Assembly (NCBI GenBank): GCA_026552855.1 | Contig: JAPMTX010000139.1 | Location: 1 to 58,372 of the forward strand | Length of the DNA: 58,372 nucleotides | Reading direction: 5' to 3' | DNA from: Candidatus Methanoperedens sp. | GTDB lineage: Archaea > Halobacteriota > Methanosarcinia > Methanosarcinales > Methanoperedenaceae | Shown here: in pieces, positions 2,736 through 23,508 of the stretch | Position numbering within the stretch: the first letter of the stretch is position 1 | Layout: each line of letters starts with the position of its first letter | The notes under the pieces: model-generated | Seen by the model: the letters and a program-made list of their open reading frames with translations, nothing else | Databases searched by the model: none | What the model was told of the DNA's origin: nothing | Program-made: the position numbers and the translations under genes

Positions 2736-2891
2736 ATGGAGGTAGTGGGACTTTGCAGTATCTGCGGGCGTCCGGGGAAGTTACATACATGCCGGTTATG
2801 CGGAAGACTGGTATGCTCAAGATGCCTTGCAAGAGAAGGGCTGTGCGTTCAATGCGCACGCGGCAGATATTACTCAGCCTCAATAGAGTAG
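2736..2891 (+). CDS. Small four-knuckle zinc-finger protein, 51 aa
   Basis: The 51-residue product contains four CxxC pairs (CSIC, CRLC, CSRC, CVQC) evenly spaced through nearly the whole protein, enough to bind two zinc ions in a compact cross-brace or HIT/B-box-like finger. A gggagggtgtgc ribosome-binding site precedes ATG 2736. The last 22 bases overlap the 3' end of the convergent DHH gene. Regular cysteine spacing in so short a frame makes chance unlikely. The role may be protein or RNA binding. Confidence 0.75.
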   Translation: MEVVGLCSICGRPGKLHTCRLCGRLVCSRCLAREGLCVQCARGRYYSASIE

Positions 2892-3874
2892 AAATACCTT
2901 GAAGAGATAGAATCGCTGATGGATTTCATGAGGAGCTGCTTTGATTTTTCAGAATTCGTGACTATGCCGAAAACCCCAAGCGGTATGGATGTGCTGGCAT
3001 TGAGCGGACCTCCTGTTACTTCACCCCATTCCCCGAATGCTTTCTTGAGCGTGTTCTTCATATTGAGTTCCCTATTACTGGACTCGGCGTAAATATATAT
3101 CTTCGAGGAATTGATCGCCAGTACGAGGGCGGTAGATATTCCCTCTATATCCAGCATGTACCTGCAAACCTTGGGAATAGTGCCTGAATCTTTAACAAAA
3201 CCCACGCTGGTGAACAGTGACGCCCCTTTTATTATTTTATTGCCGATGGCGCGGGACAGATCTTCAAAGGTATCAAGCCTGGCTGCAGGATGTTCAAGGC
3301 TGTTCAGCAGTTCCATATCCGCGAACTTGTGTATGTACCAGTAGGATTCAAGATCAGCAAGCGTGAGGTTTGTTATAAGTGTCTTGGTCTTATCCCTGAT
3401 CGCAAAGATAAGAAGGGTTGCCAGTCTTTTATCTATCTGCACTCCGAGTTTCTTTAAATAATCTATTAAAATACCCGATGTGGTCTCGGTCGTTCTTATA
3501 TCCTGGTAATCACATTGTATGCCCCCTGTATTCCCCAGGGTATGCCCTATCACTATCACGGGATTGATCTTTTCTCCCGGAAGTTCAGTCGGCAGCAGAT
3601 CTACGAAAGCTATATTATCCTGGGACTGGACAATTGTGGGGACATTTACCGCATCATCGCCGAGCACGTTGATAAGTGTCCTGTTCTGGATTACCCCTGT
3701 ATAGCATATGGTAGCGTCCATGTTGTAATGTTCCACGATACGCTTGAGTGCAAGAGAGCTTGCAAGCGAATCTGAGTCCGGGTTATTTCTAGTGTAGATT
3801 ATAACCCTCTCGCCCGGATGCGATAATATCCTCTTAAAAGACCTCTGTTTCCAGAAATTGAAACTCTTGAACAT
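2870..3874 (-). CDS. DHH-superfamily protein with a degenerate active site
   Basis: The 334-residue protein follows the two-domain DHH/DHHA1 layout of NrnA/RecJ-like phosphoesterases, which hydrolyse short oligonucleotides or pAp with Mn2+. Motif I is present as NPDSDS (residues 31-36), but the preceding His is absent, and the hallmark Asp-His-His is replaced by Gly-His-Thr (110-112). The region around residue 160, which carries an Asp ligand in active enzymes, reads IRDKT. The C-terminal DHHA1-like part ends with a conserved Gly-Gly (VTGGPLNAS). Either catalysis is lost and the protein binds nucleotides or RNA, or it uses other ligands. It lies 84 bases downstream of priL and may share its transcript. 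Confidence 0.8.
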   Translation of the reverse strand: MFKSFNFWKQRSFKRILSHPGERVIIYTRNNPDSDSLASSLALKRIVEHYNMDATICYTGVIQNRTLINVLGDDAVNVPTIVQSQDNIAFVDLLPTELPGEKINPVIVIGHTLGNTGGIQCDYQDIRTTETTSGILIDYLKKLGVQIDKRLATLLIFAIRDKTKTLITNLTLADLESYWYIHKFADMELLNSLEHPAARLDTFEDLSRAIGNKIIKGASLFTSVGFVKDSGTIPKVCRYMLDIEGISTALVLAINSSKIYIYAESSNRELNMKNTLKKAFGEWGEVTGGPLNASTSIPLGVFGIVTNSEKSKQLLMKSISDSISSRYFYSIEAE

Positions 3875-6980: not shown

Positions 6981-7538
6981 TTATTGCTTCATCTCTGCCT
7001 TTATCTGCTCTCCAAGCCTCTGTTTCTGTGTCCCATCCACGCTGATCTCCGCCATCAATTCGCTGCGCAGTGAATCCTGCACTTCCGTGAGTTCCTGGTT
7101 CCCGGACATGGCTGCGTCCATTGCTGCTGTCATAGTTGTTGTAGCGACGCCGACCCTCTCCATGCTTGTCCTGATGTTGGTGATTGCACTCTCAAGCTGT
7201 TTGGTATCAATACCCAGTTGTTTCTGGTACTTGCCCATATCCGCGCCTATCTCCACGACTTCTTTCAGTCCCTGCTGCATCTCGATAACATCGCCCATGC
7301 TCTGCGCCATCTCGACCATGCTGCTGATTGTGTTGACCTGCCCATCCAGCATCCCATACCTGCGTGAGTTTACCCTGAACTCGCGGTCGTTGCCCTCACT
7401 GAGAGCCTGCTTTGCCTCGTCCCTTGATTTCTGCCGCTTTCGCTTGAGCTCGTTTTCCCGCGCGCTCAGGCGCTGCTCATATACAGATAATTTTGTTTTC
7501 AGTTCTTCGGGTGATATTTTCTTGCTAAAGATTCCCAT
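6981..7538 (-). CDS. Snf7/ESCRT-III-like coiled-coil protein
   Basis: The 185-residue protein has ESCRT-III layout: a basic first helix (residues 10-40), a long helical hairpin with the Snf7-like signature A-x-x-A-L-x-x-G-N (42-50) followed by RVNSRRYGMLDGQVN, and a less basic C-terminal part. ESCRT-III subunits polymerise on membranes and are disassembled by Vps4 ATPases through C-terminal MIM motifs; the tail here (D-G-T-Q-K-Q-R-L-G-E near residue 170) partly fits the MIM1 pattern. It follows a ribbon-helix-helix gene with a one-base TAATG overlap and has its own ggagg site. A MIT-containing Vps4-like ATPase lies 12 kb away in the same island. The alternative is a PspA/Vipp1-type protein of the same superfamily. 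Confidence 0.65.
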   Translation of the reverse strand: MGIFSKKISPEELKTKLSVYEQRLSARENELKRKRQKSRDEAKQALSEGNDREFRVNSRRYGMLDGQVNTISSMVEMAQSMGDVIEMQQGLKEVVEIGADMGKYQKQLGIDTKQLESAITNIRTSMERVGVATTTMTAAMDAAMSGNQELTEVQDSLRSELMAEISVDGTQKQRLGEQIKAEMKQ

Positions 7539-7705: not shown

Positions 7706-7796
7706 CTCATAGTATGCTAAGGTATACAATAGAAAACCATATATATAAGGATTACCGTTTAGATTTTAAGAGTTATTATTGAAAAAGGTGGTTTCA
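7706..7796. promoter_or_regulatory. Divergent promoter between the RHH and SPFH genes
   Basis: A near-symmetric box (atatatataa, 7739-7748) fits an archaeal TATA element for both directions: about 26 bases to a plausible start site on each side. The unit GTATGCTAAG followed by GTATACAATA (about 7712-7731) forms a 10-base direct repeat between the box and the regulator start, a plausible operator for the ribbon-helix-helix protein. The ribosome-binding site aaggtggt precedes ATG 7797. Confidence 0.45.
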
Positions 7797-9215
7797 ATGC
7801 TATTCAACTGGAAGAAAAAAGACCAGGAGAAATTAAACGAAAATAGTGCTGGAATGCGTTATATAAAGCCTGATGATCCAAAGACTATCGAAAAAGACGC
7901 TGTGATCAAAAAAGGTATATTCAGTGCATCACACAAGTGGGCCCGCCAGAGTCAAAGCATCGCAAGAACTTTGCCAAAGAGTGAAATGAGTGGCTGGTTA
8001 AGTAAAAATGTTGTGGTGGCACCTAACGAAATTGCCGCTATAGTGCAGGATGGACAAGTCGTTGAGGTCGTAGAGAGCGGGAAAGTCAGGGTCGGGGGAC
8101 TGCTCAAAACTGATAGCTATTTCAAGGATGTTGAGGTTGTCATGATGGACACCTCGCCCAAGGATGCAAGCTGGCAGGTGGAAGAACTGTGGACTAATGA
8201 CCAGCATGAGGTAGCTGCGAAAGGTCTTTTGAGGTACAGGATAGCAGACCCGAAAAAGTTTTTCTCTATGGTATATGCCTACAGCAGGCTTGACGAGAAG
8301 GGCGAGAGGTTCCTGAGCCTTGAAGATATTAATGAGAAGATAAAGAGCGAGGCACTTACACGGGTATTGCAGCCTGAAACAAGCAGCGTAGAGATAGAGG
8401 AGATATACGGGAACCGCGAGTTGCAGCTTAAGATCGAGAACGAGCTTGAACTTCAGTTAAAGCAAACGCTTGAGATGTGGGGACTTGAACTTCTGAAATT
8501 CACCTCTGAATGGGATCTTGGCAATTATACCGAGCTTGCCAGGGCAAGGAGGGGATTTGAGAAAGAGGAGGAATTAAAAGAACTTGACACTCTTTCAAAA
8601 GAAGGAGATTACGAGCGCACTGGAAGAGGTGAGGTAGCAAAAGTGCGCGCCTGGCATGCGCCGATTTCTGTTGAAAAGGACTTCGAGAGGGAACAGCGTC
8701 TGAAGGATGAAAAGGCGCTGCTGGAAAAAGAGCGCTTGGAGGGTGAGTCTGACTTTGAGGATGCAAAGCGCGGCATTGAGACCTACAAGCTCTGGAAGCA
8801 GGCGAAGGTAGAATCAAAGAAGGCAGAAGTTGGAATTGACCAGGAGGTTGCAGATAAAGAGCATGCGCGCGAGCTTGAGCGCCTGCGCCTGATTACAGAA
8901 AAAGGCGGCGCGGATACTGCGCGCGTGATAGCGGAGGGCAGGGAGTACAGCAGGCTCAGCCCGGCGCAGATAGAGGCGATAGCGAAAGCGCGGGAGAGCG
9001 AGGCGCGCTCGAAGGAGGATAAGCTTGCTTTCATGAAGGAGATCGAGGACAGGGAGAGGAACGATGCTTATCGGAGGCAGGAGCTTGATGCCAAGCTTAT
9101 GGATGCAGCGAAGCCTGTTGCTTCGGGCGCGAGCGTGAGGAAGTGCACGCACTGCGGGGCGACTGTGCCGATGCAGGCGAGTTTTTGCGGGGAGTGTGGG
9201 AGCAAGTTTGGGTAG
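7797..9215 (+). CDS. SPFH/band-7 protein with C-terminal zinc ribbon
   Basis: SPFH proteins build membrane-associated scaffolds. This 472-residue protein begins at ATG 7797 (aaggtggt site upstream). It has a band-7-like region from about residue 70 (VVVAPNEIAAIVQDG) to 270, then a long charged coiled coil (270-440; DFEREQRLKDEK, EHARELERLR), then a zinc ribbon with Cys450, 453, 464 and 467. There is no clear membrane helix, so membrane attachment would be peripheral. The same domain order is found in the 'virion core protein'-type SPFH family (Band_7_1), inferred from memory of the family. Gene is divergent from the Snf7-like operon, and its zinc ribbon resembles those of 9265-11154 and 18355-19116. 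Confidence 0.85.
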   Translation: MLFNWKKKDQEKLNENSAGMRYIKPDDPKTIEKDAVIKKGIFSASHKWARQSQSIARTLPKSEMSGWLSKNVVVAPNEIAAIVQDGQVVEVVESGKVRVGGLLKTDSYFKDVEVVMMDTSPKDASWQVEELWTNDQHEVAAKGLLRYRIADPKKFFSMVYAYSRLDEKGERFLSLEDINEKIKSEALTRVLQPETSSVEIEEIYGNRELQLKIENELELQLKQTLEMWGLELLKFTSEWDLGNYTELARARRGFEKEEELKELDTLSKEGDYERTGRGEVAKVRAWHAPISVEKDFEREQRLKDEKALLEKERLEGESDFEDAKRGIETYKLWKQAKVESKKAEVGIDQEVADKEHARELERLRLITEKGGADTARVIAEGREYSRLSPAQIEAIAKARESEARSKEDKLAFMKEIEDRERNDAYRRQELDAKLMDAAKPVASGASVRKCTHCGATVPMQASFCGECGSKFG

Positions 9216-9264: not shown

Positions 9265-11154
9265 ATGAGATGGGTGCAATTAGTTATATTTATTGTTTTT
9301 CTTAGCGGTATAGTGGAGAGTGTTTCTGCTGCCCCTACCGCTACCTTAACTTCGAGTTCTGCAGTTAATCTAAAAACAGGAGAAAGTACAACTGCTACTT
9401 TTAGTGTATTCAATGACAACAGTTTTTGTAGCGTAACTGCATACTACTCAATAGACTCGGTTTCTTACAATAATGTAATTGGAAGAATCGGGGCGAAAGA
9501 GTCAAAATCGATAAGTATAAAAGTCTCAGCTCCGCCAATAGGAAGTGGTTCCGGAAGTGTTCAAAGTCAAATATATGTAAGAATTGTTACCGACTCTAGT
9601 TTTTGGTGCGGTGGAGAAAAATATAATCGACAACTTGTGTTGAATATTAATTACGATGATTCTGAATTTCAAAATGCAAAATCCAATGCGGAGAGGGCAA
9701 TTAGTTCTGCTAACAGCGCAATTAATTCAGCATCCTCAAGTATCGCAACTGCACAAAATACTTTAACAGTTGCTAAAAATAATGGAGTGGATTTAAGTAA
9801 TGCTGAAGTACTATTAACTAGTGCACAAACAGTCTATCAAAATGCTCAATCTAAATTAGGCAGTGCACAAAATAGTTTTAATCAAAATGCGAAGCAGAGC
9901 TTTGATTTAGCAACTCAATATGCAAATGAAGCTACAAACTATGCGAATTCGGCTAAAGCTGATGCAGATAATGCTTATGTTATTGCTACACAGGCAATAG
10001 AGAAATATAAGAAAGAGTTACCAAATGTAAAATCTAACGCTGAGAGTGCAGTTTTCCCTTCTAGCAGCATAATTAATACTGCCCCTTCCAGTATCGCAAC
10101 TGCATTATTGTCAGTAGTTTCAGGTATTTTATTGCTAACGGGAGTTATTCTCTTACGGAGGAGGAAAAAATCCCAACATGAAGTTGTTTTACCATCAAAC
10201 GAGTTGAAAAATGTGCCTATGACATCACAGGTGAGTGAACAACCTAAAGAATCTCCTAACAAAAAATCAGAGGGAAATGTTGAGATTGGAGTAAAATCTG
10301 CTTATGAGTACAAGGGAGCTAAAATATATTACAAAATTAAGGTTGAGAACAGTACCTTGGAAGCAATAGGCGATATCAAAGTCCATCTCTTTGTTCCAGA
10401 TGTTTTTCTTCTTAAGGAAAAAGAGAAATCTCTCTCAATGCTGGAACCAAAAGAAAGTAAAACCGTTACCTTTGAAATCCGCCCCACTGGTGAGTGTGGA
10501 GACTGCAACGTGTCGGGCAAAGTAGAATATTACGATTACAGTACAAAAGGACGCAAGATGCTGGATATAGAGACAAAATCCCTCAGCGTAATCTGTCCAG
10601 TCCTGAAAAGAAAAGAAATAGATATAAAACAGTGGGAGCAAGTTACGGATGACCTGATAAAAGCTGAAGAGAACATAAAGGAGCTTTCCGTCCCCGCTGA
10701 GAACCTGTTCAACATCACATCCAGAGTAATTAAAGATAGCGGCATGTTCATGCTTAAGCCGGAGATTACCTCTACTCCTCAACTTTTTAATGGAATTGCC
10801 ATGTTCTATGCCGAAGGTGTAACAGGCATGCGGTATGCCGCATACATAGAGGTAGTTGGTGGGTCTCGCAAGTCGCGCCTGATATTGAAAGTATGGGCAG
10901 AGAAAGAGGAGGCATTAACTGGTTTTTATCATAGAATCCTGGATGAGATTGAGAAAAGGATAGATGTCAAGATATTCATCGATGATGCTGTTGTGCAGCA
11001 GCATATCCACATCGGAGATAGAATAGGCACTCAGGTAAAAGATTCCTTTGTTCAACGCTCGAACATAGGTGAAGGTGCAAGGAAGTGCCCGAACTGCGGC
11101 AGGGAGGTAGAGACAAATGAGAAGTTCTGTCTTGAGTGCGGGGCGAGGTTGTGA
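9265..11154 (+). CDS. Membrane protein: ectodomain stalk + cytosolic shared module + zinc ribbon
   Basis: The 629-residue protein has a signal peptide (1-23), an extracytosolic beta-sandwich-like domain (24-130) with Cys pairs, a Ser/Ala/Asn-rich helical stalk (132-260), and one membrane helix (278-298) followed by RRRKK, which places the rest inside. The cytosolic part (310-601) is a beta-sandwich (IKVENSTLEAIGDI), a V-I-C-P linker and an alpha/beta segment, ending in DDAVVQQ (573-579) and DSFVQRSNIG (593-602). A zinc ribbon follows with Cys608, 611, 622 and 625. The module and tail recur in the proteins at 13422 and 20926. The ectodomain half is much more AT-rich than the cytosolic half. 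Function is unknown; a signal-relaying receptor or scaffold is inferred. Confidence 0.8.
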   Translation: MRWVQLVIFIVFLSGIVESVSAAPTATLTSSSAVNLKTGESTTATFSVFNDNSFCSVTAYYSIDSVSYNNVIGRIGAKESKSISIKVSAPPIGSGSGSVQSQIYVRIVTDSSFWCGGEKYNRQLVLNINYDDSEFQNAKSNAERAISSANSAINSASSSIATAQNTLTVAKNNGVDLSNAEVLLTSAQTVYQNAQSKLGSAQNSFNQNAKQSFDLATQYANEATNYANSAKADADNAYVIATQAIEKYKKELPNVKSNAESAVFPSSSIINTAPSSIATALLSVVSGILLLTGVILLRRRKKSQHEVVLPSNELKNVPMTSQVSEQPKESPNKKSEGNVEIGVKSAYEYKGAKIYYKIKVENSTLEAIGDIKVHLFVPDVFLLKEKEKSLSMLEPKESKTVTFEIRPTGECGDCNVSGKVEYYDYSTKGRKMLDIETKSLSVICPVLKRKEIDIKQWEQVTDDLIKAEENIKELSVPAENLFNITSRVIKDSGMFMLKPEITSTPQLFNGIAMFYAEGVTGMRYAAYIEVVGGSRKSRLILKVWAEKEEALTGFYHRILDEIEKRIDVKIFIDDAVVQQHIHIGDRIGTQVKDSFVQRSNIGEGARKCPNCGREVETNEKFCLECGARL

Positions 11155-11199: not shown

Positions 11200-11607
11200 A
11201 TGGAATTGAATGAAGAACGAAAAAATCGATATCTTTCGAAGAGCGGATACATAATAGAAAAGATGGACACGCTACCAGATAATATCGATGATCTGGATGA
11301 GCTTGGAGTAGATGGAGTGCTGTACAGGGTACAGACCAGTATCGATGCAGCTATAGATATGGCTGCTATGCTGGTGAGGGATATTGGAATCGAAGTGGGT
11401 GATGATTATGAGAATATTGACATTCTTAAAGAAAAAGGGGTTATCGATGCAGAACTTGGAGGGGAGCTTAAACGACTTAATGGTATGAGAAATGCCATTG
11501 TCCACAAATACGGAATTGTTGATACTGAACTAATACTGCAGAATCTTGAAAATGTTAAAGAACAACTCCATAGATTTGTTATTATTATTGAAGGTGAACT
11601 CTCATGA
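11200..11607 (+). CDS. hepT: HepT-like toxin (DUF86)
   Basis: HepT is the HEPN-family toxin of the HepT/MntA toxin-antitoxin system, an RNA-targeting or AMPylation-controlled partner. The 135-residue helical protein ends its second long helix with the HEPN motif R-x4-H-x-Y (Arg97, His102, Tyr104; RNAIVHKY). Its stop overlaps the start of the nucleotidyltransferase gene (ATGA), the usual gene order for this pair. Catalytic residues are intact, so it is probably functional. Confidence 0.9.
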   Translation: MELNEERKNRYLSKSGYIIEKMDTLPDNIDDLDELGVDGVLYRVQTSIDAAIDMAAMLVRDIGIEVGDDYENIDILKEKGVIDAELGGELKRLNGMRNAIVHKYGIVDTELILQNLENVKEQLHRFVIIIEGELS

Positions 11608-12023
11608 AGACTCTTCAGGATATCAAAACTGACCTGTATTTTGTTAAGGACTATGAAGTTGTTGTTTTTGGTTCATACGCCAGCAAAAAAGCAGATAAAC
11701 GTTCAGATATCGATGTTGCAGTGATTACCAGACAAAAGAACAGGAACAAATGTATCGAGATATGGTGGGAACTCATGGGGAAAGCGCCTGAGGTCTATGA
11801 TATCAAAATATTCGAGCTTCTGCCTCTCCCCATAAAAGCCTCTGTTATCTGGAGGTATGAGGTAGTTTTTGGTGACAGACTCGATATTTCAGAATATTTT
11901 TACAATTACAGAAAACTATGGAATGATACGAAACACCGGCTCGAAGAGAATCGATTCAGGAGCATAAACGAAAAAATCGTGGTGCTTAAAAGAAGGCGTC
12001 TATCAACGAGGATGCAAAAATGA
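11604..12023 (+). CDS. mntA: MntA-like nucleotidyltransferase antitoxin
   Basis: The 139-residue protein has the minimal nucleotidyltransferase signature GS-x10-DxD (Gly23-Ser24 and Asp35/Asp37; FGSYASKKADKRSDID). MntA antitoxins AMPylate the Tyr of the HepT motif and so block the toxin. Overlaps hepT by 4 bases. The C-terminal third (residues 90-139) is basic and longer than in the smallest family members. Confidence 0.9.
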   Translation: MKTLQDIKTDLYFVKDYEVVVFGSYASKKADKRSDIDVAVITRQKNRNKCIEIWWELMGKAPEVYDIKIFELLPLPIKASVIWRYEVVFGDRLDISEYFYNYRKLWNDTKHRLEENRFRSINEKIVVLKRRRLSTRMQK

Positions 12024-12065: not shown

Positions 12066-13373
12066 ATGAATAAAAAAAATCCATTTAAATCTTTTCTCTC
12101 TAATACCAGCGGAGCAGTAAACATCCCCTCCGTGGCAAAAGAGGGCATTGTTTCGCTTTTGATCAGCATCGTGGCGAACGAGGCGACCTCGACAGTATCA
12201 GGTTTTTCCTACGATAACCTGCTTCGTCTGCTCATCATGTTTTTAGTAGTCCTGGCTATAATCCATTTCTCACTTAAGATAACGGAGCAGCTCCGAAGGA
12301 AAAAAGCAAATCTTGAGGACCTGCAGGCAGCAAACACCAGGGAGGCATTAAAGAACCTTAACGGCGCCCGGACAATTCTGGATAGACTTGTCCAGAACTC
12401 AGGCGAAGTAACAGAACTTCGCGGCTTAAGAAATAAGCTCACAACTATAATCTCTGAAATCCAGAACCCAAATATTTCGAAGTTCAGCAAAAAGTCAGCG
12501 ACTGTAGACGAGTTCGATGAAGCCGAGAAACTGCTGGCGGAGAGTTCAAAGAATCTCGCTCTGGAGCTTGAGAAGCAATCGAAGGAAGGCGCGGATGTAA
12601 AGGCTGTAGCCCTCCTTGTGGATGCGGTTGGGGATGCACTCCGGAACAGGATACCGCTTTCAAACGAATTGAAAGATCACTACGTTGAAAGTTTAAAAAA
12701 GGAGATTCAGGAAAAAAAGAAGATACCAAAAGAAACGTCATCAGAACTTAATCTCTATCTGAACACCCTCCAGATAAAGTATGCCTCTTACCATCCTGAA
12801 GTGCTGCATACAGGGGATTATGCGGCGAACATGAAGTGGGATTACAATGCTGATGATAAAAATATCACAGCCAGGCTCTCAGATGGTTTAATCGGCTCTC
12901 CACTGCTGCTGCTGGAGACGAGATGGCAGGATAACGGCGCGATAATAGAGGATGTGCAGAAAGAGGCTGAGTCTGTGAAAAAAAACCAGTATAAGTGTCT
13001 CTGCCTTATTAATTCTGCATGGGATAAGGAAAGCAAGGATTTTGTATCCCGGTTTAATCATCCGAAACTCTCTCTGTATCTATATGAGTTGAATGGAGGA
13101 CTGTTTTTTAATAGAGAGACTCCTGCTGCAAAGCATTATGAGTTCTGGTTCAACACAGAGCAAAAGCGGGAGACATTGAAGGAAAGGGCGCTGAGGTTTA
13201 TTGAGGCGCATGAATACTTTACGGCGCAGGAAATGGCGGGCGCGCTGGGGATGAAAGTGGAGGGCGCGGAGGCGTTGCTGGAGGGGTTTGAGAAAACTGG
13301 TGTAGTCACGAATGTGAGCTTCAAATCGGATAAAATCAGGAAATATACGAAGGCAAAGGCTAAAGAAGATTAA
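12066..13373 (+). CDS. Membrane-anchored coiled-coil protein with C-terminal winged helix
   Basis: No named family is recognised. The 435-residue protein has a hydrophobic segment at about residues 50-72 (RLLIMFLVVLAIIHFSLKI), a helical coiled-coil stretch (75-230) and an alpha/beta region (250-360) with WDYNADDKN and WFNTEQ landmarks. The C-terminal 60 residues (375-430) look like a winged helix: AHEYFTAQEMAGALGM and EALLEGFEKTGVV. The DNA-binding-like end would lie in the cytosol beneath the membrane. It sits between the HepT/MntA pair and the TPR membrane protein, all on one strand with short gaps. A membrane-tethered regulator is one reading; a scaffold is another. Confidence 0.7.
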   Translation: MNKKNPFKSFLSNTSGAVNIPSVAKEGIVSLLISIVANEATSTVSGFSYDNLLRLLIMFLVVLAIIHFSLKITEQLRRKKANLEDLQAANTREALKNLNGARTILDRLVQNSGEVTELRGLRNKLTTIISEIQNPNISKFSKKSATVDEFDEAEKLLAESSKNLALELEKQSKEGADVKAVALLVDAVGDALRNRIPLSNELKDHYVESLKKEIQEKKKIPKETSSELNLYLNTLQIKYASYHPEVLHTGDYAANMKWDYNADDKNITARLSDGLIGSPLLLLETRWQDNGAIIEDVQKEAESVKKNQYKCLCLINSAWDKESKDFVSRFNHPKLSLYLYELNGGLFFNRETPAAKHYEFWFNTEQKRETLKERALRFIEAHEYFTAQEMAGALGMKVEGAEALLEGFEKTGVVTNVSFKSDKIRKYTKAKAKED

Positions 13374-13421: not shown

Positions 13422-15575
13422 ATGCTGAGAAGAGATGGTGTTAGAACTGCCCAATTTGCTGTAATTGCTATTGCTATAATTGCGATCTCGTCCTCGCCCA
13501 TAGCCGCCAGCACATCCGCGCAATTTATTGATATCGGAAATGCATTTATGGATACTGGAAGATATCAGGAAGCGCTTAACGCATTCGATAAGGCAATAGA
13601 AATCGACCCTGATAATTCAAATGCCTGGGAAAATAAAGGAATTGCACTTAACAATTTAGGGAGAAATCAAGAGGCGTTTGAGGCACTTGTTAAAGCTTTA
13701 GAACTCAATCCTGATAATTTAAATGCGTTGGTCCATAAAGGATATACGCTTGATGCTTTAGGTAGGCGCCAGGAAGCTATTGCTGTTGCGTATGAGGTTA
13801 TTAATAAAAGTGATAGGTTAATAGCAACCGATCCTAACGATACCGACGCTTGGCTCCACAAAGGAAGTTTCTTGTCCTTTTTAGGAAAAAACGATGAAGC
13901 TATTACAGCATTAAACAAAGCAATATCAATTAATCCAAACAATCCACATACTTGGTTTACAAAAGGAAATGTTCTTTTGAATTCAGGGAAATATCAAGAA
14001 GCTCTGAATGCAATCGATGAAGCAATAAAAGTTAATCCAAATCTGTCGCATTTTTGGCGAAGCAAAGGGGATGCATTGAAAGCTTTAGGAAAGTACCAAG
14101 AAGCTAATGAGGCATATAATAAAGCATATGAACTTACAACAACTGCATCAGCACCATCTAATAGTGCCTCTCGAGCAAACGATTTGTTTTCAGAAGGATT
14201 GAAGTATTTTTCTGTTATGGGGTTAACATCTTTAATCATAATAGGTATCATATTACTTTTTGAAAAAAGAGGGAAAAATGAGCCAAAGTTCAGAGATGAT
14301 TTGAAAACTAAGCATTGGTTTGGATATTATTCAGTACTAATTTGTCATTTTATTATAGGCGCCATTTTAGCACTTATTTCACTGGAAATCGCCTTCAAAG
14401 AACTTCCTTTCAGTTTTGATACCCAGAAATTTTTCTTTGCTATCCCATTTTTCTATCTCTCATTATCCTCTTTCATTTTAATAGTTGGATTATTAGCATC
14501 AAAGCCGATTATAAAATTAAATACAGTACACTTTCTTGTTTCTCTAATTATAGGAATGCTCCTTATCATTGCACTTGGTGATCCGAAAACACCAGTCTTT
14601 TTACCATTTTTACCTTTAATATCAGCAGGATTATCTTTCTGGTACGGCAGAATTGCTATTCTCAGACCAGAATCTATTCAGAAATCGTTATCTGTAGAAA
14701 AAGATACTGAAAAATCTATTCCTGTACCTTATATCAACCGTGGATATGCAGTTCTGCCTAATAATGATATCAAGTTTGGTATAAGAGTGACGAATGACAC
14801 AGGTTACACCGTTACAGATGTCGATACTATTCTCGATTGCACCGAAGAACTCTTCAACCTTAAAGAATCTAAAATCCAGCGTATTGGCACCATCCCGCCA
14901 AACGGTGCAAGAACAGCAACCTACATTCTTAAACCCCTCGGCTGCATCCACAACGAGCAGATAAACGCCCTCATCACCTACAAAGACCACACAGGCAAAA
15001 AGCAAACCCTTCACATGCGCCCCAAAGAAATACACTGCGTATGCCCGTTTGTGAAAGAAAAGCCCATGAGCGAGGGAGAATACAGCCGCCTGGCTGCGAA
15101 TAGCGAATTCATTCAGGAGGGCATATCTTTTGAGGGCATCAGCATCGAGGATTTGGGTAAATTCATGGGCGAGACCTGCAAGCACATGCTGTATAAAGTT
15201 AAAGAATACGATCTGGAAGGGAAGAAAGTCATTTATCTATCTGGCGAGGCGCTCGGGGAGAGGACATATTATCTCTTGACCGCTGTTATTCAGGATTACA
15301 AGAGGCTTACTCAGGTCATCCTGCGGGCGCATTCAGATAAGAAATACGGGTTGAATGGGTTCATGAATGAGATGGCAGACAGTATACGGCATCTTGTGGG
15401 TTCGGTGCAATCTGCCAAGGAGATCGGGATTATAGAGAACACCCAGGTGATCAATATCATTGATTCTGTTGTGCAGCGGACGAGTTTCAATATGGGTGAA
15501 GGTGGAAATGCCCATGTGAGTATAAGAGACAGCCTGATCCAGCATACAGATTTCAAAAAGAAGAAGGAGGAATAG
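13422..15575 (+). CDS. TPR membrane protein with shared cytosolic module and Q-R tail
   Basis: The 717-residue protein starts with a hydrophobic signal or anchor (about 11-30), then about six TPR units (34-235; repeats such as GNAFMDTGRYQEALNAFDKA) that would lie outside the membrane. Five membrane helices follow (about 262-417). The cytosolic part (440-717) is homologous to those of 9265 and 20926: a beta-sandwich (IRVTNDTGYTVTD), the V-C-P linker and two tail motifs, DSVVQRTSF (681-689) and DSLIQHTDF (703-711). The first two-thirds is AT-rich; the module is clearly GC-richer, suggesting it was joined or converted later. TPRs usually bind proteins; a substrate is not known. Confidence 0.8.
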   Translation: MLRRDGVRTAQFAVIAIAIIAISSSPIAASTSAQFIDIGNAFMDTGRYQEALNAFDKAIEIDPDNSNAWENKGIALNNLGRNQEAFEALVKALELNPDNLNALVHKGYTLDALGRRQEAIAVAYEVINKSDRLIATDPNDTDAWLHKGSFLSFLGKNDEAITALNKAISINPNNPHTWFTKGNVLLNSGKYQEALNAIDEAIKVNPNLSHFWRSKGDALKALGKYQEANEAYNKAYELTTTASAPSNSASRANDLFSEGLKYFSVMGLTSLIIIGIILLFEKRGKNEPKFRDDLKTKHWFGYYSVLICHFIIGAILALISLEIAFKELPFSFDTQKFFFAIPFFYLSLSSFILIVGLLASKPIIKLNTVHFLVSLIIGMLLIIALGDPKTPVFLPFLPLISAGLSFWYGRIAILRPESIQKSLSVEKDTEKSIPVPYINRGYAVLPNNDIKFGIRVTNDTGYTVTDVDTILDCTEELFNLKESKIQRIGTIPPNGARTATYILKPLGCIHNEQINALITYKDHTGKKQTLHMRPKEIHCVCPFVKEKPMSEGEYSRLAANSEFIQEGISFEGISIEDLGKFMGETCKHMLYKVKEYDLEGKKVIYLSGEALGERTYYLLTAVIQDYKRLTQVILRAHSDKKYGLNGFMNEMADSIRHLVGSVQSAKEIGIIENTQVINIIDSVVQRTSFNMGEGGNAHVSIRDSLIQHTDFKKKKEE

Positions 15576-18338: not shown

Positions 18339-18354
18339 TGAACAGGTGGTAAAA

Positions 18355-19116
18355 ATGGCAAAATTTTGCCCGAACTGCGGGAACCAGATGAGCGATAACG
18401 CGAAGTTCTGTGTGGAATGCGGCTCAAAGCTTGGAGATTATCCGAGCGGCGGCGCTGGAATAAAAGATAACATCATACAGCGGTCGCAGGTAGGGGCGGC
18501 GAGCGTGGGAAGTGTAGAGATCTCTCCGGTTATTTCTCAACATATAGAATTTAAAGGCGGAATAGTCCCACAGCCACAGGAAATAGATAACACCTATTCT
18601 GAAATTTTAAAATATTTCTATTCTGACCCTTTATTGCAATTCTCTCAGTTACAGAAAACAATTATCCGAATGGAGCCGCGCATCTGGGATGGTGAGAAAT
18701 ATATTTCGATATTTAAAGGCAGCATAATAATACTAGTGGGGGCTTGGGAAGGAGCGGAACTTTTCGATAGAATAGTTGCATACAAAATTTTAAACGAATT
18801 GGATAAAAGAGGAGTTGAAAGCATAGTTATAGCAGATAGATACTGGCAGGAAGTTAAGGAGAGATACTACGATTCTCCATACATCGCAGTTGGCGGTCCT
18901 ATATCCAACTCGGTTTCAAACGAAATCGCTGAGAAGCTTGGATTAAATAAAGATACAGTAAACGTAGGATTCAAAGAGCTTGGCAGAAAATTTGTTGGTT
19001 ATGCATGGGGCGTCGATGTAAGAAGTACACTTAATGCAGGTAAAATATTCATTGAGTCCTACTTAGATAATTTTGCGACAAAGATAAAAGAGGGGAAGTT
19101 TGCTGAAAAGAGGTAG
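18355..19116 (+). CDS. Soluble zinc-ribbon protein with QRS tail motif
   Basis: The 253-residue protein (ATG 18355, ggtggt site) starts with a zinc ribbon (Cys5, 8, 19, 22). Next come the motif DNIIQRSQVG (38-47) and a weaker copy SPVISQHIEF (57-66), the same kind of tail found in the three membrane proteins of the island. The rest (75-253) is alpha/beta with an ILVGAWEGAELFDR stretch, and AVGGPISNSVSNEIAEKLG resembling the Gly-Gly-Pro-x-x-Asn loop of some archaeal S-layer-associated proteins. DNA after about 18540 is markedly more AT-rich than the first 190 bases. No membrane helix. It may be a soluble adaptor that recognises the membrane partners; this is inference. Confidence 0.75.
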   Translation: MAKFCPNCGNQMSDNAKFCVECGSKLGDYPSGGAGIKDNIIQRSQVGAASVGSVEISPVISQHIEFKGGIVPQPQEIDNTYSEILKYFYSDPLLQFSQLQKTIIRMEPRIWDGEKYISIFKGSIIILVGAWEGAELFDRIVAYKILNELDKRGVESIVIADRYWQEVKERYYDSPYIAVGGPISNSVSNEIAEKLGLNKDTVNVGFKELGRKFVGYAWGVDVRSTLNAGKIFIESYLDNFATKIKEGKFAEKR

Positions 19117-19216: not shown

Positions 19217-20899
19217 ATGTCCTTCTCCACCACCCTCTCCGCCGAAGCCCGGGGTCTAACAAAAGCCGCCAAACAGGCAGAAGAAGCAGGCAACATCGAG
19301 CAGGCGCGCGCCCTGTACCTTCAAGCTGCTGGAAAATTCAATGAAGCAAGCGCGCTCACTTCAGATAAGGTTGAGAAAAATACGCAGGCTGGATTAGCGA
19401 AGCACTTCTATGAATATGCTCTCTCTCTCGGCAATCAGCCCAGCGCCATCGGCGGCGCGCCTGCGGGAAAAGAAGAGAAAAAGCTGACAAAAGAAGATTT
19501 GATTGTTCATGAGAAGCCGAACATTAGGTTCAGCGACATTGGCGGGCTTGACAGCGTAAAAGAAGAGCTTAAGAAAGCCATCATTTACCCTTTCACCCAT
19601 AAGAGGCTCTACGAGTATTACAACCAGAAACCCGGCGGCGGCGTTCTCCTCTACGGTCCTCCGGGCTGCGGCAAGACAATGATAGCCAAGGCTGCTGCCT
19701 GCGAATGCGGCGCGGATTTCATCAATGTGGAGACAAGCACTATAATGAGCAAATGGGTGGGAGAATCGGAGAAGGCAATCAAGAACATCTTCGAGGTGGC
19801 AAGAGGCTGCGAGCGTGCCATAATCTTTTTTGATGAGTTCGATGCCGTGGGTGGGCGGCGCAGCGAGATCGAGGACTACGCAAAACGTATCGTGAATGAG
19901 CTTTTGCAGCAGATGGACGGGATGACAAAGAACGATAATATACTGGTGCTGGCTGCCACAAATGAGCCGTGGGCTATAGACCCGGCATTAAGAAGACCGG
20001 GACGCCTGAAAAAACTGGTATTTATCCCGCCGCCTGACCTTGATGCACGCAGATCTATATTCGAGATATACCTTCGAAAACTTCCGCTTGAGGTTGATGT
20101 CGATTCTAAATACCTAGCTCAGGTAACGCAGGGTTTCTCAGGCGCTGATATTGCGGCAGTTTGCGGCGATGCTTCAGAAATACCTCTTCAGGAGGCACTG
20201 GCAGGGAAGCCGCAGCGTAAGATAAGGAAACTTGACTTTGAGAAAGCAATGGAGGGCAGGCGCTCGTCCATAGTTCCCTGGATCAGAATGGCTATCGAGC
20301 AGGTGAAAAAGAGCAGGGAAGAAGACCTGTTCAGCGAGCTGGTAAAACTTGGAGAGAGTTATGCTGCGGGTTCTGTAAAATCTCAGGTTCAGCAACCTGT
20401 GAAATCAGAGGCGCTGCAAATAAAACCAGAGATGATCTCAAGAATAATCTCTGGTACCAGGGTTGGTGATGGAGTATTGAAATCAGTATTAAATATCGCC
20501 GTTGAAATCTCAAATGAAGGAAGAGAGGGGAAGCCCGTTGGAACAGCTTTCTTAATTGGTGATAGTAAAGCGGTGCTTGCGAAATCCAAACAGCTTGTGC
20601 TGAATCCATTCGAGGGGCATGCGTATGAAAAAAGACTTGTTACAAACCCAGAAATATGGGAGAATATCAAGGAGTTCGCTCAACTGGATGGTGCTTTCGT
20701 TATCTCGGATGATGGCTTAATCGAATGTGCTGGAAGGTATCTAACTGCAGATGCGGATATAAATTTGCCCGAAGGATTTGGGACAAGACATTCCTCGGTT
20801 GCTGCTATTACAGTGGTGACAAATGCGATAGGTATCGTGGTATCTCAAAGCGGAGGGATTAGGATAATTAAAAAAGGAAAGATAGATGCTAAGATATAA
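19217..20899 (+). CDS. MIT + Vps4-type AAA ATPase fused to a diadenylate cyclase domain
   Basis: The 560-residue protein has three parts. Residues 8-70 fit a MIT helical bundle (AEEAGNIEQARALYLQAAGK), the ESCRT-III-binding module of Vps4. Residues 100-345 are a classical AAA domain with Walker A GPPGCGKT (147-154), the Vps4/katanin pore loop SKWVGESE (178-185), Walker B FFDEFDA (204-210), sensor AATN (246-249) and arginine finger RRPGR (259-263). Residues 405-560 match the archaeal DAC domain that makes c-di-AMP: EGREGKPVG, DGA (491-493) and GTRH (522-525), then VVSQSGGIRI. The residue after RH is Ser, where many DAC enzymes have Arg. It would couple ESCRT-like disassembly to c-di-AMP; activity is not proven. 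Confidence 0.85.
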   Translation: MSFSTTLSAEARGLTKAAKQAEEAGNIEQARALYLQAAGKFNEASALTSDKVEKNTQAGLAKHFYEYALSLGNQPSAIGGAPAGKEEKKLTKEDLIVHEKPNIRFSDIGGLDSVKEELKKAIIYPFTHKRLYEYYNQKPGGGVLLYGPPGCGKTMIAKAAACECGADFINVETSTIMSKWVGESEKAIKNIFEVARGCERAIIFFDEFDAVGGRRSEIEDYAKRIVNELLQQMDGMTKNDNILVLAATNEPWAIDPALRRPGRLKKLVFIPPPDLDARRSIFEIYLRKLPLEVDVDSKYLAQVTQGFSGADIAAVCGDASEIPLQEALAGKPQRKIRKLDFEKAMEGRRSSIVPWIRMAIEQVKKSREEDLFSELVKLGESYAAGSVKSQVQQPVKSEALQIKPEMISRIISGTRVGDGVLKSVLNIAVEISNEGREGKPVGTAFLIGDSKAVLAKSKQLVLNPFEGHAYEKRLVTNPEIWENIKEFAQLDGAFVISDDGLIECAGRYLTADADINLPEGFGTRHSSVAAITVVTNAIGIVVSQSGGIRIIKKGKIDAKI

Positions 20900-20925: not shown

Positions 20926-23508
20926 ATGGATAGCAGGGATACATTACATGAAACTCAAAATAAACCAGATGTACTTCGTGAGTTCGAGTTTTACGGCGGA
21001 TGCATCCGTGTAAAGATATCCGTAAAAAATACCTCCGATTTAGCCATTCTTGATACTGCGCTTGAGCTTGAGGCTGATGAGCAGATTCTTCATTTTGACC
21101 GCTGCGAGCCTGAGTATCCTGAGAAAAAAGGGAGAATTCTCCTCGGCAACATCAATCCGAATACCGATAGAACAGTGGCTTTTTACCTCGACCCTCTGAT
21201 ATGCGCGAAGGAAGGGACGGATATCAACTGCCGCGTTAGCTTCAAGGACGCTTTCGGAAGACCCGACTCTGTGCAGATGGAGACCCTGAAAATAAAAGTG
21301 GTCTGCCCGATATTCCGCACCGAACAGGATATCAATGTAGGCAGGCTGAAGGAACTCATATCAGAGCTTCAGTTCCAAGACAGCAAGGTCTATACACTTC
21401 CTAAAAGGGGGGAAATTTCAGAGCTTTTGAGGACATGCAGGGATGTTGTTCTGCTGCACGATGTTCGCCATATAAAAACATTCAAGACCACAGATGAAAA
21501 GACCTACGAAGCCTGGTATTACGGAAAGACGAAGGTAACGAAGAAAGACCTTGTGATAAAATGCGCTATCTGCAAGGATACTGAGAGCATTGAGGTTTTT
21601 GCTTCTGGAAACGACCCTGGCGACATCACAGGTCTTCTTGCTGAGATAGGGCGCAATCTTACAAGGGAATTCGAGAGGCTGGGGAAAGTTCAGTCTGTTT
21701 TTAATATACATATCAAGAATTCCATTATACAGAGGAGCAATCTGTTGAGTTTCTGCGACATAGATGGTAGCTGCGGCGGGAATGTGGTTATTGACGATAG
21801 CGTGGTGCAGCGTTCGAATATTGCTTCGTGGAATGAAGTGCAGAAAAAGGAATTGGAGGAGGAAAGAGCAAGACACCCAGATGATATATCACAGATTCAA
21901 TATTGGATAACCACATCGAATTGGTATGATCAGCACATACCATCCCGTCCTTGCTCCGGGGCTTTTGACCGTCAGGAGAAACAGATATGGTGGTATTATA
22001 AAAACAGGGATAACGTCAGACCAGGTGATAAGGCTGTAGTATACCAACCCGGAGGTGATGTAGAGGCTGGTAAAGAAAAAATACGAATCGATGAGAGAGT
22101 AAAAGGGTCGTTCATCGGAAATTTTACTGTTGATAAAATAATAGAAAAGAGGGATTTCACAGTTCCAGATATCTGCTGGACAGAACCGTACGACGGCTGG
22201 CTTAAAACCGTTGAAAAAGGATTTCTCTGGCCGAAAAATAAAATCATTAAAAGAAAAAATATAAATGATGATTTATTATTAAAAATAACAAAAAGTCCTA
22301 ATATCGGGTTGGTGTTTAAGGGAAAAACTTGGATTAAAATTACTAAGGAGTATTATGATGTGGTACTCGAAGCTTATAATAAGCCATACAAGGAAGATAG
22401 AGAATCAGGGGTAATAGAGAGAGAGGATGAGCAGGAAAAGCCTTATGGGCGATGGGATGAGGAAGAGAGACAAAGGTTAAGTGAAGAGTATCACCGCCGC
22501 GCCATTGAGGAAGAAGAGGGCAGACAGCAAGAAGAGCAGGAGCGCACAACACGGGAAAGAGAAGAATTAAGGGCACATAAAGAAGGAACATCGTGGAAAG
22601 GCTTCTTTGCCGTGGCGCTGCTGTTGGGTGTGCTGGTGCTGGGATACTTGGCGCTTGCGCCGGGTGCAACTGAAGCGCCTGGAACCACGAAATCCACACC
22701 AACACCTGATGCTACTACAAGTGTAACCCAGATTCCCAAGGTTACTCAAACAGTTTCTCCAGCACTCGAATCTACGCCAGTCTCAGACCAGAAGACCTTC
22801 ATCAGCACAATCGGCATGGAGTTCGTGCTTATTCCTGCGGGCGAGTTTGACATGGGTTCGCCGACAAGTGAAAAAGGCAGTTTACCTGAAGAAAGACCCG
22901 TCCATCGGGTAAAGATTTCAAAGCCTTTCTACATGGGTAAAAATAAAGTCACCCAGAAACAGTGGAGTGATATCATGGGAAACAACCCCTCATTTTTAAA
23001 AGGTGATGACCTGCCCGTGGACCAGGTATCATGGTACGATATTCAGGATTTCATCAAGCAACTTAATGAGAAAGAAGGTACGAACAAATACCGGCTGCCC
23101 TCAGAGGCGGAATGGGAATACTCCATACGGGCTGGAACTAATACAACGTATTTCTTCGGGGATAATATATCAGAACTCGGTGATTATGCATGGTATGATG
23201 GGACGCATCCTGTTGGTCAAAAGAAACCCAATCCATGGGGACTGTACGACATGCACGGCAATGGCTTTGAATGGATTCAGGATATATATCACGGATTCTA
23301 CGGTTATAACGGTGCACCCACAGATGGTAGTGCCTGGGAAGGCGTAACTTCAGAAGGAGGGGTAGGTTCTAAGAGAGTCCTCCGAGGTAGCCGTGGCTGC
23401 CTTCTCTATAACAATATAGACGGTCACTGCCGTTCAGCATCTCGCGACTCTGAGTCTCAGGGCATCCGGAACGGTGGGATAGGCTTTCGTCTCGTGAGGG
23501 ATTTGTAG
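20926..23508 (+). CDS. Shared module + EVE-like domain + membrane helix + FGE-sulfatase domain
   Basis: The 860-residue protein begins with the cytosolic module also found at 9265 and 13422 (residues 18-300: beta-sandwich ISVKNTSDLAI, V-V-C-P linker, tails NSIIQRSN (265-272) and DSVVQRSNI (291-299)). Residues 324-478 look like an EVE/PUA-type domain (QYWITTSNWYD, VRPGDKAVVYQ), a fold that reads modified bases. A charged helix, one membrane helix (558-577), a Thr/Pro linker and an FGE-sulfatase domain (625-860) follow: IPAGEFDMGS, YRLPSEAEWEY, GNGFEW, GIGFRLVR. The FGE domain would be outside. Its two Cys near the end (GSRGC, GHC) do not have the spacing of catalytic FGE, so enzyme activity is doubtful. 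Last gene of the island. Confidence 0.8.
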   Translation: MDSRDTLHETQNKPDVLREFEFYGGCIRVKISVKNTSDLAILDTALELEADEQILHFDRCEPEYPEKKGRILLGNINPNTDRTVAFYLDPLICAKEGTDINCRVSFKDAFGRPDSVQMETLKIKVVCPIFRTEQDINVGRLKELISELQFQDSKVYTLPKRGEISELLRTCRDVVLLHDVRHIKTFKTTDEKTYEAWYYGKTKVTKKDLVIKCAICKDTESIEVFASGNDPGDITGLLAEIGRNLTREFERLGKVQSVFNIHIKNSIIQRSNLLSFCDIDGSCGGNVVIDDSVVQRSNIASWNEVQKKELEEERARHPDDISQIQYWITTSNWYDQHIPSRPCSGAFDRQEKQIWWYYKNRDNVRPGDKAVVYQPGGDVEAGKEKIRIDERVKGSFIGNFTVDKIIEKRDFTVPDICWTEPYDGWLKTVEKGFLWPKNKIIKRKNINDDLLLKITKSPNIGLVFKGKTWIKITKEYYDVVLEAYNKPYKEDRESGVIEREDEQEKPYGRWDEEERQRLSEEYHRRAIEEEEGRQQEEQERTTREREELRAHKEGTSWKGFFAVALLLGVLVLGYLALAPGATEAPGTTKSTPTPDATTSVTQIPKVTQTVSPALESTPVSDQKTFISTIGMEFVLIPAGEFDMGSPTSEKGSLPEERPVHRVKISKPFYMGKNKVTQKQWSDIMGNNPSFLKGDDLPVDQVSWYDIQDFIKQLNEKEGTNKYRLPSEAEWEYSIRAGTNTTYFFGDNISELGDYAWYDGTHPVGQKKPNPWGLYDMHGNGFEWIQDIYHGFYGYNGAPTDGSAWEGVTSEGGVGSKRVLRGSRGCLLYNNIDGHCRSASRDSESQGIRNGGIGFRLVRDL

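Follow-up and report, generated by a model that had tools for sequence, protein, structure and literature searches.

The locus raises the question of whether one archaeal protein joins an AAA disassembly ATPase to a diadenylate cyclase (DAC) and, if so, what the two activities would have to do with each other. We examined a stretch of 58,372 nucleotides (hereafter the window), which is contig C15 of a 3.4-Mb genome of the methane-oxidising archaeon Candidatus Methanoperedens, together with related loci in other archaeal genomes.

Domain layout of the fusion gene

One gene in the window encodes an N-terminal MIT-like bundle followed by a complete classical AAA ATPase, which a linker connects to a DAC domain. 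Its frame opens with an ATG at 19217, preceded by a purine-rich gagga, and runs to a stop codon ending at 20899, with zero internal stops:

19217..20899, + strand: MIT-like-AAA-DAC fusion gene, 560 aa (ORF, Pfam, NCBIfam, AlphaFold2 model)
19223..19426, + strand: MIT-like three-helix bundle, aa 3-70 (weak Pfam MIT match, modelled helices, L079 alignment)
19493..20356, + strand: classical AAA ATPase with lid, about aa 93-380 (Pfam, motifs, tree, identities)
20357..20440, + strand: linker, about aa 381-408 (mostly low model confidence)
20441..20896, + strand: DAC domain, about aa 409-560 (Pfam, NCBIfam, PDB sequence search)

This layout bears out the preliminary description, which had claimed a 560-residue protein of MIT-like, classical AAA, and DAC parts. 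Pfam AAA matches residues 143-271 (E-value 2.6e-40), AAA_lid_3 matches residues 294-328 (2e-9), and DAC (PF02457) matches residues 434-555 (3.6e-16, 59.3 bits against a cut-off of 27). Among NCBIfam models, DacZ aligns over residues 395-556 (4e-35) and CDC48 over residues 96-342 (1.7e-79), both below their curated cut-offs (for DacZ, the equivalog cut-off), and CdvC aligns over residues 1-354 (7.8e-68) with a score of 229 against a cut-off of 650. The pore loop and cyclase motifs named in that description are all located in the sequence. The classical AAA features (Walker A, Walker B, and AAA lid) are present, with intact Walker A at 147-154, SKWVGESE at 178-185, Walker B at 202-209, and RRPGR at 259-263 in the Arg-finger region; the DAC half has GREGKPVG at 435-442, DGA at 491-493, GTRHSS at 522-527, and VVSQSGG at 541-547.

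The N-terminal assignment draws on several comparisons. Pfam MIT matches residues 11-52 of the whole protein at 0.0032 and 18 bits, and residues 1-75 scanned alone at 2.3e-4 and 21.7 bits, both below the 30-bit cut-off; the N-terminus of a homologue (L094) reaches 1.6e-6 and 28.6 bits, also below it. A stand-alone MIT-DAC protein (L079) has an MIT part that aligns to residues 3-89 with 41% identity over 87 residues (E 1.6e-9, in a small database). The AlphaFold2 model (mean pLDDT 73.5, pTM 0.46) places helices at residues 3-23, 27-47, and 51-70, in blocks with pLDDT 86-97, followed by an AAA core and, at the C-terminus, an alpha/beta region; pLDDT falls below 50 in parts of the AAA lid (300-356) and of the linker (382-400).

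An ESCRT-type gene neighborhood

The fusion gene lies among genes whose relatives recur in ESCRT-type loci:

6981..7538, − strand: ESCRT-III-like (Snf7-like) gene, 185 aa (ESCRT-III-like predicted fold)
7779..9215, + strand: SPFH/Band-7 protein with C-terminal zinc ribbon (Band_7 6.4e-10, over cut-off)
9265..11154, + strand: zinc-ribbon protein with weak Ig-like matches, 629 aa (Pfam, related loci)
12066..13373, + strand: 435-aa protein (homologues in related ESCRT-type loci)
13422..15575, + strand: TPR protein (relatives of its C-terminal part in several related loci)
20926..23508, + strand: 860-aa protein with C-terminal FGE-sulfatase domain, 1.9e-40 (Pfam, related loci)

The Snf7-like gene is ∼12 kb upstream of the fusion gene, on the opposite strand. 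Its family, used as a profile against PDB sequences, retrieved no ESCRT-III chain up to E 5. Relatives of the SPFH protein, whose zinc ribbon scores just below its cut-off (6.9e-5, 22.9 bits versus 25), occur near the Snf7-like gene in other families. The Ig-like Pfam matches of the 629-aa protein are weak (Transglut_C 1.3e-4, below cut-off). Four loci (L096, L097, L195, and L196) have a homologue of the 435-aa protein adjoining or close to a stand-alone AAA gene; a fifth (L191) has one close to the Snf7-like gene.

The Snf7-like gene was found in 17 of 99 genomes, including 1 of the 31 of the genus. We followed its context in 11 loci outside the present genome, a count that leaves out five further Snf7-positive genomes. 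In 8 of the 11 (L094-L097 and L193-L196), there is a stand-alone AAA gene in the same orientation no more than ∼5.2 kb away, which in L096, L097, L195, and L196 is the very next gene, and in all eight the SPFH gene or its start is on the other side of the Snf7-like gene. For the remaining three, the contigs of L191 and L186 end before the expected place of the AAA gene, and L192 holds only a Snf7 fragment.

Other features of this gene row deserve mention. At 11200-12023 there is a pair encoding HEPN (HepT-like, 8.3e-21) and MNT nucleotidyltransferase proteins, probably a toxin-antitoxin module. The products of 9265-11154, 13422-15575, 18346-19116, and 20926-23508 have in common a short recurring sequence, D(S/N)xVQRS or something close to it, sometimes before a zinc ribbon. 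A DHH/DHHA1-like protein with weak matches (2.7e-4 and 0.016) is encoded at 2870-3874 on the − strand, adjoining genes for the primase large subunit and PCNA; as its best named matches are inorganic pyrophosphatases and its neighbors are these replication genes, we dropped it as a candidate for the matching phosphodiesterase.

An AAA protein with a cyclase might instead serve as an infection alarm in a defence or conflict system. PADLOC models do match the fusion (IetA 2.8e-39, TRIP13 1.6e-15, and a diadenylate cyclase model 6e-11), the HEPN/MNT pair is nearby, and PADLOC has MNT-type matches to 11604-12020 and one weak match to 12066-13370. Yet AAA-type PADLOC matches are expected of any classical AAA domain, 7 of the 10 locus proteins scanned have no PADLOC match at E ≤ 0.001, and the neighborhood is instead one common to ESCRT-type loci, which makes a defence role very unlikely.

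Placement of the AAA half

Because stand-alone homologues match across the whole span, residues 1-378 of the fusion correspond to an entire stand-alone Vps4-like protein. Over residues 3-379, identity to stand-alone AAA proteins is 73% in G054 and G042, 60% in G053, and 53% in G037; the relatives at 73% are Vps4-like proteins of 380-385 aa from another family of the same order, and the 380-aa protein of G054 stops where the linker to the DAC domain starts in the fusion. In a tree of 30 AAA sequences, the fusion groups with four stand-alone proteins from one family (support 100/98).

The preliminary description had called this AAA domain Vps4-type, an assignment that we base on gene context. 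In the available text of Makarova et al. 2024 (PMC10936438), an ATPase is assigned to the Vps4 family by either an MIT domain or ESCRT genes nearby; we count the fusion as Vps4 on the second of these alternatives, because its neighborhood has ESCRT genes (the Snf7-like gene ∼12 kb away, with the SPFH gene beside it). By sequence comparison, the fusion AAA is no nearer to Vps4 than to Cdc48. Structure comparison with the full model gave 42-45% identity to Vps4 entries and 36-45% to p97/Cdc48 entries, the matches of a fold search with that model being filled by AAA structures, and in the midpoint-rooted AAA tree, which carries a long-branch warning, the fusion falls on the Cdc48 side. Vps4_C (PF09336) is absent from the 25 of 31 Pfam families listed for the fusion.

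The diadenylate cyclase half

A PDB sequence search with the DAC part returned 14 distinct sequences at E ≤ 0.01 (best 4.2e-6), all of them named diadenylate cyclase, CdaA, or DAC-domain protein; in the alignment, DGA falls on DGA and GTRHSS on GTRHRA. The fusion thus has RHS rather than the full RHR motif of bacterial CdaA, and the preliminary description had taken this Ser to leave catalytic activity open. We collected 88 archaeal rows with a motif pattern that requires the His and leaves the next letter free; among the 84 readable rows (4 were unreadable), with 12 DacZ rows from other families and 8 from the genus among them, none has Arg after RH, the letters being S in 35, N in 14, A in 14, V in 11, F in 4, T in 4, and G in 2. 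Since Arg is missing from all 84, RHS does not set the fusion apart from its archaeal relatives, and the Ser alone casts no doubt on activity.

The present genome has five DAC matches: the fusion; C204, a DacZ of the PK_C type (DacZ_A 2.4e-19); C140, an MIT-DAC protein; C207, with a hydrophobic C-terminal part as judged by eye; and C22, a short frame resembling the HEAT-DAC kind. It is conceivable that the DAC domain of the fusion is a receptor and not a cyclase, binding c-di-AMP or ATP and tuning the AAA motor so that the messenger controls ESCRT disassembly. The four other DAC matches could then supply the c-di-AMP, and two positions vary in these families, namely the letter after RH and the third letter of DGA (A, V, or I). 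Set against this, the GREGK, TRH, and VSQSGG stretches are retained in both fusion types (the second, type B, is described below), and the window protein keeps DGA exactly, whereas type B has DGV, like most MIT-DAC proteins and all 12 DacZ rows of other families. We regard a receptor as unlikely, though credible, and favor a cyclase.

MIT-DAC proteins are widespread in the genus: this class of DAC ORF is present in 30 of 31 genomes, and in most genus loci compared its DAC half is 57-64% identical to that of the fusion. We scanned 26 of these proteins, namely the 25 full-length genus members and L221 from G516, with five of the 30 (L070, L076, L080, L082, and L088) omitted for short or cut N-termini. 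DAC matched in all 26 and MIT at E ≤ 0.01 in 25 (best 3.7e-7); the exception is probably L221, which scanned alone gives no MIT match. At the stand-alone MIT-DAC loci read in the genus, no homologue of the window's ESCRT-type genes is nearby, except an FGE-domain gene in L064.

DAC trees, built on subsets of 73 and 49 rows, place the fusion DAC with those of type B fusions, MIT-DAC and HEAT-DAC proteins, and Methanomicrobiales, apart from the PK_C-type DacZ (100/100). Monophyly of the DAC domains of the two fusion types was neither supported nor rejected by the AU test (p 0.378), such that a single fusion with later replacement of the AAA domain is possible beside two separate fusions.

Other architectures appeared in the course of this survey. 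In Methanomicrobiales (L116, L117, L224, L230, L235, L239, and others), DAC follows receiver-like and PAS-like domains, which we named by eye; two-component-controlled c-di-AMP synthesis thus seems common in Methanoregula and Methanolinea. Four Methanoperedenaceae loci (L042, L041, L040, and L050) have HEAT-like repeats before a C-terminal DAC, with HEAT_2 at 7.1e-4 in L042, below cut-off.

Repeated occurrence of DAC with ESCRT-type genes

A second fusion, type B (597-599 aa), occurs in 3 of the 31 genus genomes (G006, G010, and G024). Among 80 named loci, the pattern used for reading gave a DAC ORF in 65 and missed 15; 2 of the 65 (L105 and L108) carry AAA, and their contigs equal those of G010 and G024 in length. 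Its AAA domain is only 32-35% identical to that of the window and forms a separate clade (100/100 in the 30-row tree). The type B protein L036 has Vps4_C (1.5e-6), and its N-terminus alone gives a katanin-type MIT match of 0.0023, below cut-off. Directly downstream of the type B fusion, G024 and G010 have a gene whose product matches the N-terminal part of the 860-aa protein (20926-23508) at 86% and 82% identity, respectively; G006 has two successive relatives of the TPR gene (13422-15575) there. Directly 5′ of the fusion, in the ESCRT-III position, G006 and G024 have a coiled-coil gene of 203-208 aa; the G010 contig ends where that gene would be.

Related arrangements exist in which DAC is a separate gene or lacking. 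In G516, from another class, two coiled-coil genes, an AAA gene (390 aa), and a DAC gene (266 aa) follow one another on one strand, with DAC 29 bp after AAA. The G516 AAA has Vps4_C over cut-off (2.1e-4); Pfam MIT matches neither its AAA nor its DAC protein, whose MIT-like starts were read by eye. The genus MIT-DAC protein L079 aligns with the G516 DAC protein from residue 2 of the latter, at 46%, and among 59 other genomes searched around G516 no match to that protein starts before residue 77. In G052, a 65% homologue of the type B coiled-coil gene precedes a stand-alone type B AAA; G315, G093, and G314 each have a type B AAA that lacks DAC, with two coiled-coil genes (187-206 aa) nearby. DAC is therefore recurrently associated with ESCRT-type genes, fused and unfused.

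The seven coiled-coil proteins scanned have no Pfam Snf7 match, and profile-profile comparison found no relation between the type B coiled-coil set and the window's Snf7-like family (probability 12.8%). As neither profile matches, the ESCRT-III identity of the type B coiled-coil proteins rests on position and shape. Against PDB, the type B set had four matches up to E 1, with CdvB among them at E 0.5; the type B coiled-coil gene has no homologue in the other 57 of the 60 genomes searched. Unnamed coiled-coil families of this kind (∼187-208 aa), in the ESCRT-III position by Vps4-like genes, are found at L197:223-849, L198:19009-19620, L213:9165-9788, L218, L219, and L220.

The window-type fusion (type A) was seen in this genome only, and that assembly has an estimated contamination of 6.49%, so one may ask whether an assembly or frame artefact has joined two separate genes, the possibility that the preliminary description had itself raised. 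However, the frame is single and open, and the point of joining is internal to a 58-kb contig; three other assemblies carry a second MIT-like-AAA-DAC fusion, and in two of them the N-terminal part of the downstream gene is 82-86% conserved. This recurrence, as a second fusion type and as an unfused operon, disfavors both chance and assembly error, and we consider an artefact extremely improbable. In a sample of 392 phylum genomes, for which three candidates were scored per genome, no further full-length fusion was found at E ≤ 1e-100 among the matches listed, which include three genus genomes; viral contigs gave two weak matches, in the AAA region. A 588-aa frame of G001 was judged not to be an AAA fusion. 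On another contig of the present genome (C11; L212:103-1755, − strand), a 550-aa frame has a type B-like AAA (61%) whose N-terminus is shortened; HEAT-like repeats, seen by eye, follow where its relatives have DAC.

Recurrence also bears on whether the linkage is incidental, DAC being a mobile output domain that has landed on AAA proteins without mechanistic coupling. The domain has many partners in these archaea (PK_C-like, HEAT, receiver-like and PAS, and membrane parts). But DAC is joined to two distinct AAA lineages, almost every genus genome has an MIT-DAC protein, and in a different class a separate DAC gene belongs to a Vps4 operon; incidental linkage thus appears quite unlikely, and we prefer a functional one.

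Proposed mechanism and significance

Vps4-like motors dismantle the ESCRT filaments that cut membranes, and their rings form on ESCRT-III; in bacteria, the stress messenger c-di-AMP affects the transport of ions and osmolytes. In the available text of Braun et al. 2019 (PMC6741144), DAC catalysis requires two DAC molecules, and the Haloferax volcanii DacZ is active with manganese only. As DAC needs two molecules and Vps4 rings assemble on ESCRT-III, assembly-gated synthesis would be the simplest mechanism. The fusion would then serve an archaeal ESCRT system that has SPFH and zinc-ribbon partners as its Vps4-type ATPase, bearing DAC as C-terminal output. Its MIT-like bundle would dock it onto the ESCRT-III-like polymer of the locus, where ATP binding would build the AAA ring; the ring would pair the tethered DAC domains, the pairing that catalysis requires, and c-di-AMP would thereby be produced during ESCRT-III remodelling. 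The messenger may in turn tell its usual targets, the transport of ions and osmolytes, that membranes are being remodelled or are damaged. This osmotic output is our guess from the action of c-di-AMP on bacterial osmolyte transport and from the osmoprotectant-binding protein, ProX, of Meth_adaptin loci as described in PMC10936438. The computation establishes which domains are present, that key residues are intact, that the gene is linked to an ESCRT-III-like gene, and that DAC recurs with ESCRT; cyclase activity, docking, gating by ring assembly, and osmotic output are what we infer, and we put the probability of the whole model, in which c-di-AMP is made where and when a Vps4 ring assembles on an ESCRT-III polymer, at roughly 55%.

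When two domains occur both fused and as operon partners, a shared function is the classical interpretation; DAC accompanies Vps4-like ATPases from two separate lineages, either as part of the protein or encoded next to it, and is also found on MIT domains alone. The functional link between ESCRT ATPase and c-di-AMP that the preliminary description proposed is thus supported by gene context, if only as a candidate link. More tentatively, at slightly less than even odds, there may be a signalling branch of ESCRT in which Vps4-type ATPases, through fusion, MIT tethering, or operon partnership, drive local c-di-AMP synthesis dependent on polymer state, and which arose more than once, on two AAA lineages. 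If so, membrane remodelling would be the source of a second messenger, in a previously undescribed branch of archaeal ESCRT, and, as far as our searches show, this would be the first tie of ESCRT membrane remodelling to a cyclic dinucleotide. The unfused operon and the MIT-DAC proteins suggest a tie broader than a single gene. A cyclase in a Vps4-type ATPase also offers one testable protein for two questions, namely how c-di-AMP is controlled in archaea and what ESCRT does outside cell division.

Comparison with known systems

The preliminary description knew of no protein joining an AAA disassembly factor to a c-di-AMP synthase, and among the listed titles and abstract openings examined in the open full-text literature we likewise found no account of Vps4 or ESCRT joined to diadenylate cyclase or c-di-AMP; as far as searched, the MIT-AAA-DAC fusion is undescribed. 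Four known systems come close. The CdvC/Vps4 proteins of crenarchaea are represented by the NCBIfam CdvC model, which covers the MIT-like and AAA parts with a score far under cut-off, and to our knowledge CdvC has no DAC domain. The MIT-DAC proteins of Methanoperedens have an MIT N-terminus, comparable to the MIT-like one of the fusion, and a DAC half about 60% identical, without the AAA domain. DacZ and DacY-CdaZ, as presented in the available text of Braun et al. 2019 (PMC6741144), have the archaeal-type DAC domain in common with the fusion, but behind an N-terminal PK_C-like domain, in place of which the fusion has its MIT-like bundle and AAA domain; lacking the PK_C-like/DacZ_A domain, the fusion is not classed as DacZ.

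In gene content, the window resembles the Meth_adaptin and Main archaeal Vps4/ESCRT loci of the survey PMC10936438, the main text of which has zero occurrences of "cyclase", "c-di-AMP", or "DAC". As described there, both kinds of locus have an MIT-AAA ATPase and an ESCRT-III-like gene, to which the MIT-like-AAA part of the fusion and the Snf7-like gene correspond; Meth_adaptin loci additionally have an SPFH protein with zinc ribbon, as the window does, and proteins with Ig-like and zinc-ribbon domains (adaptin-appendage-like denoting Ig plus a TBP fold), for which the 629-aa protein is a candidate counterpart. Unlike the ATPases of the Meth_adaptin and Main loci in that description, the ATPase of the window ends in a DAC domain.
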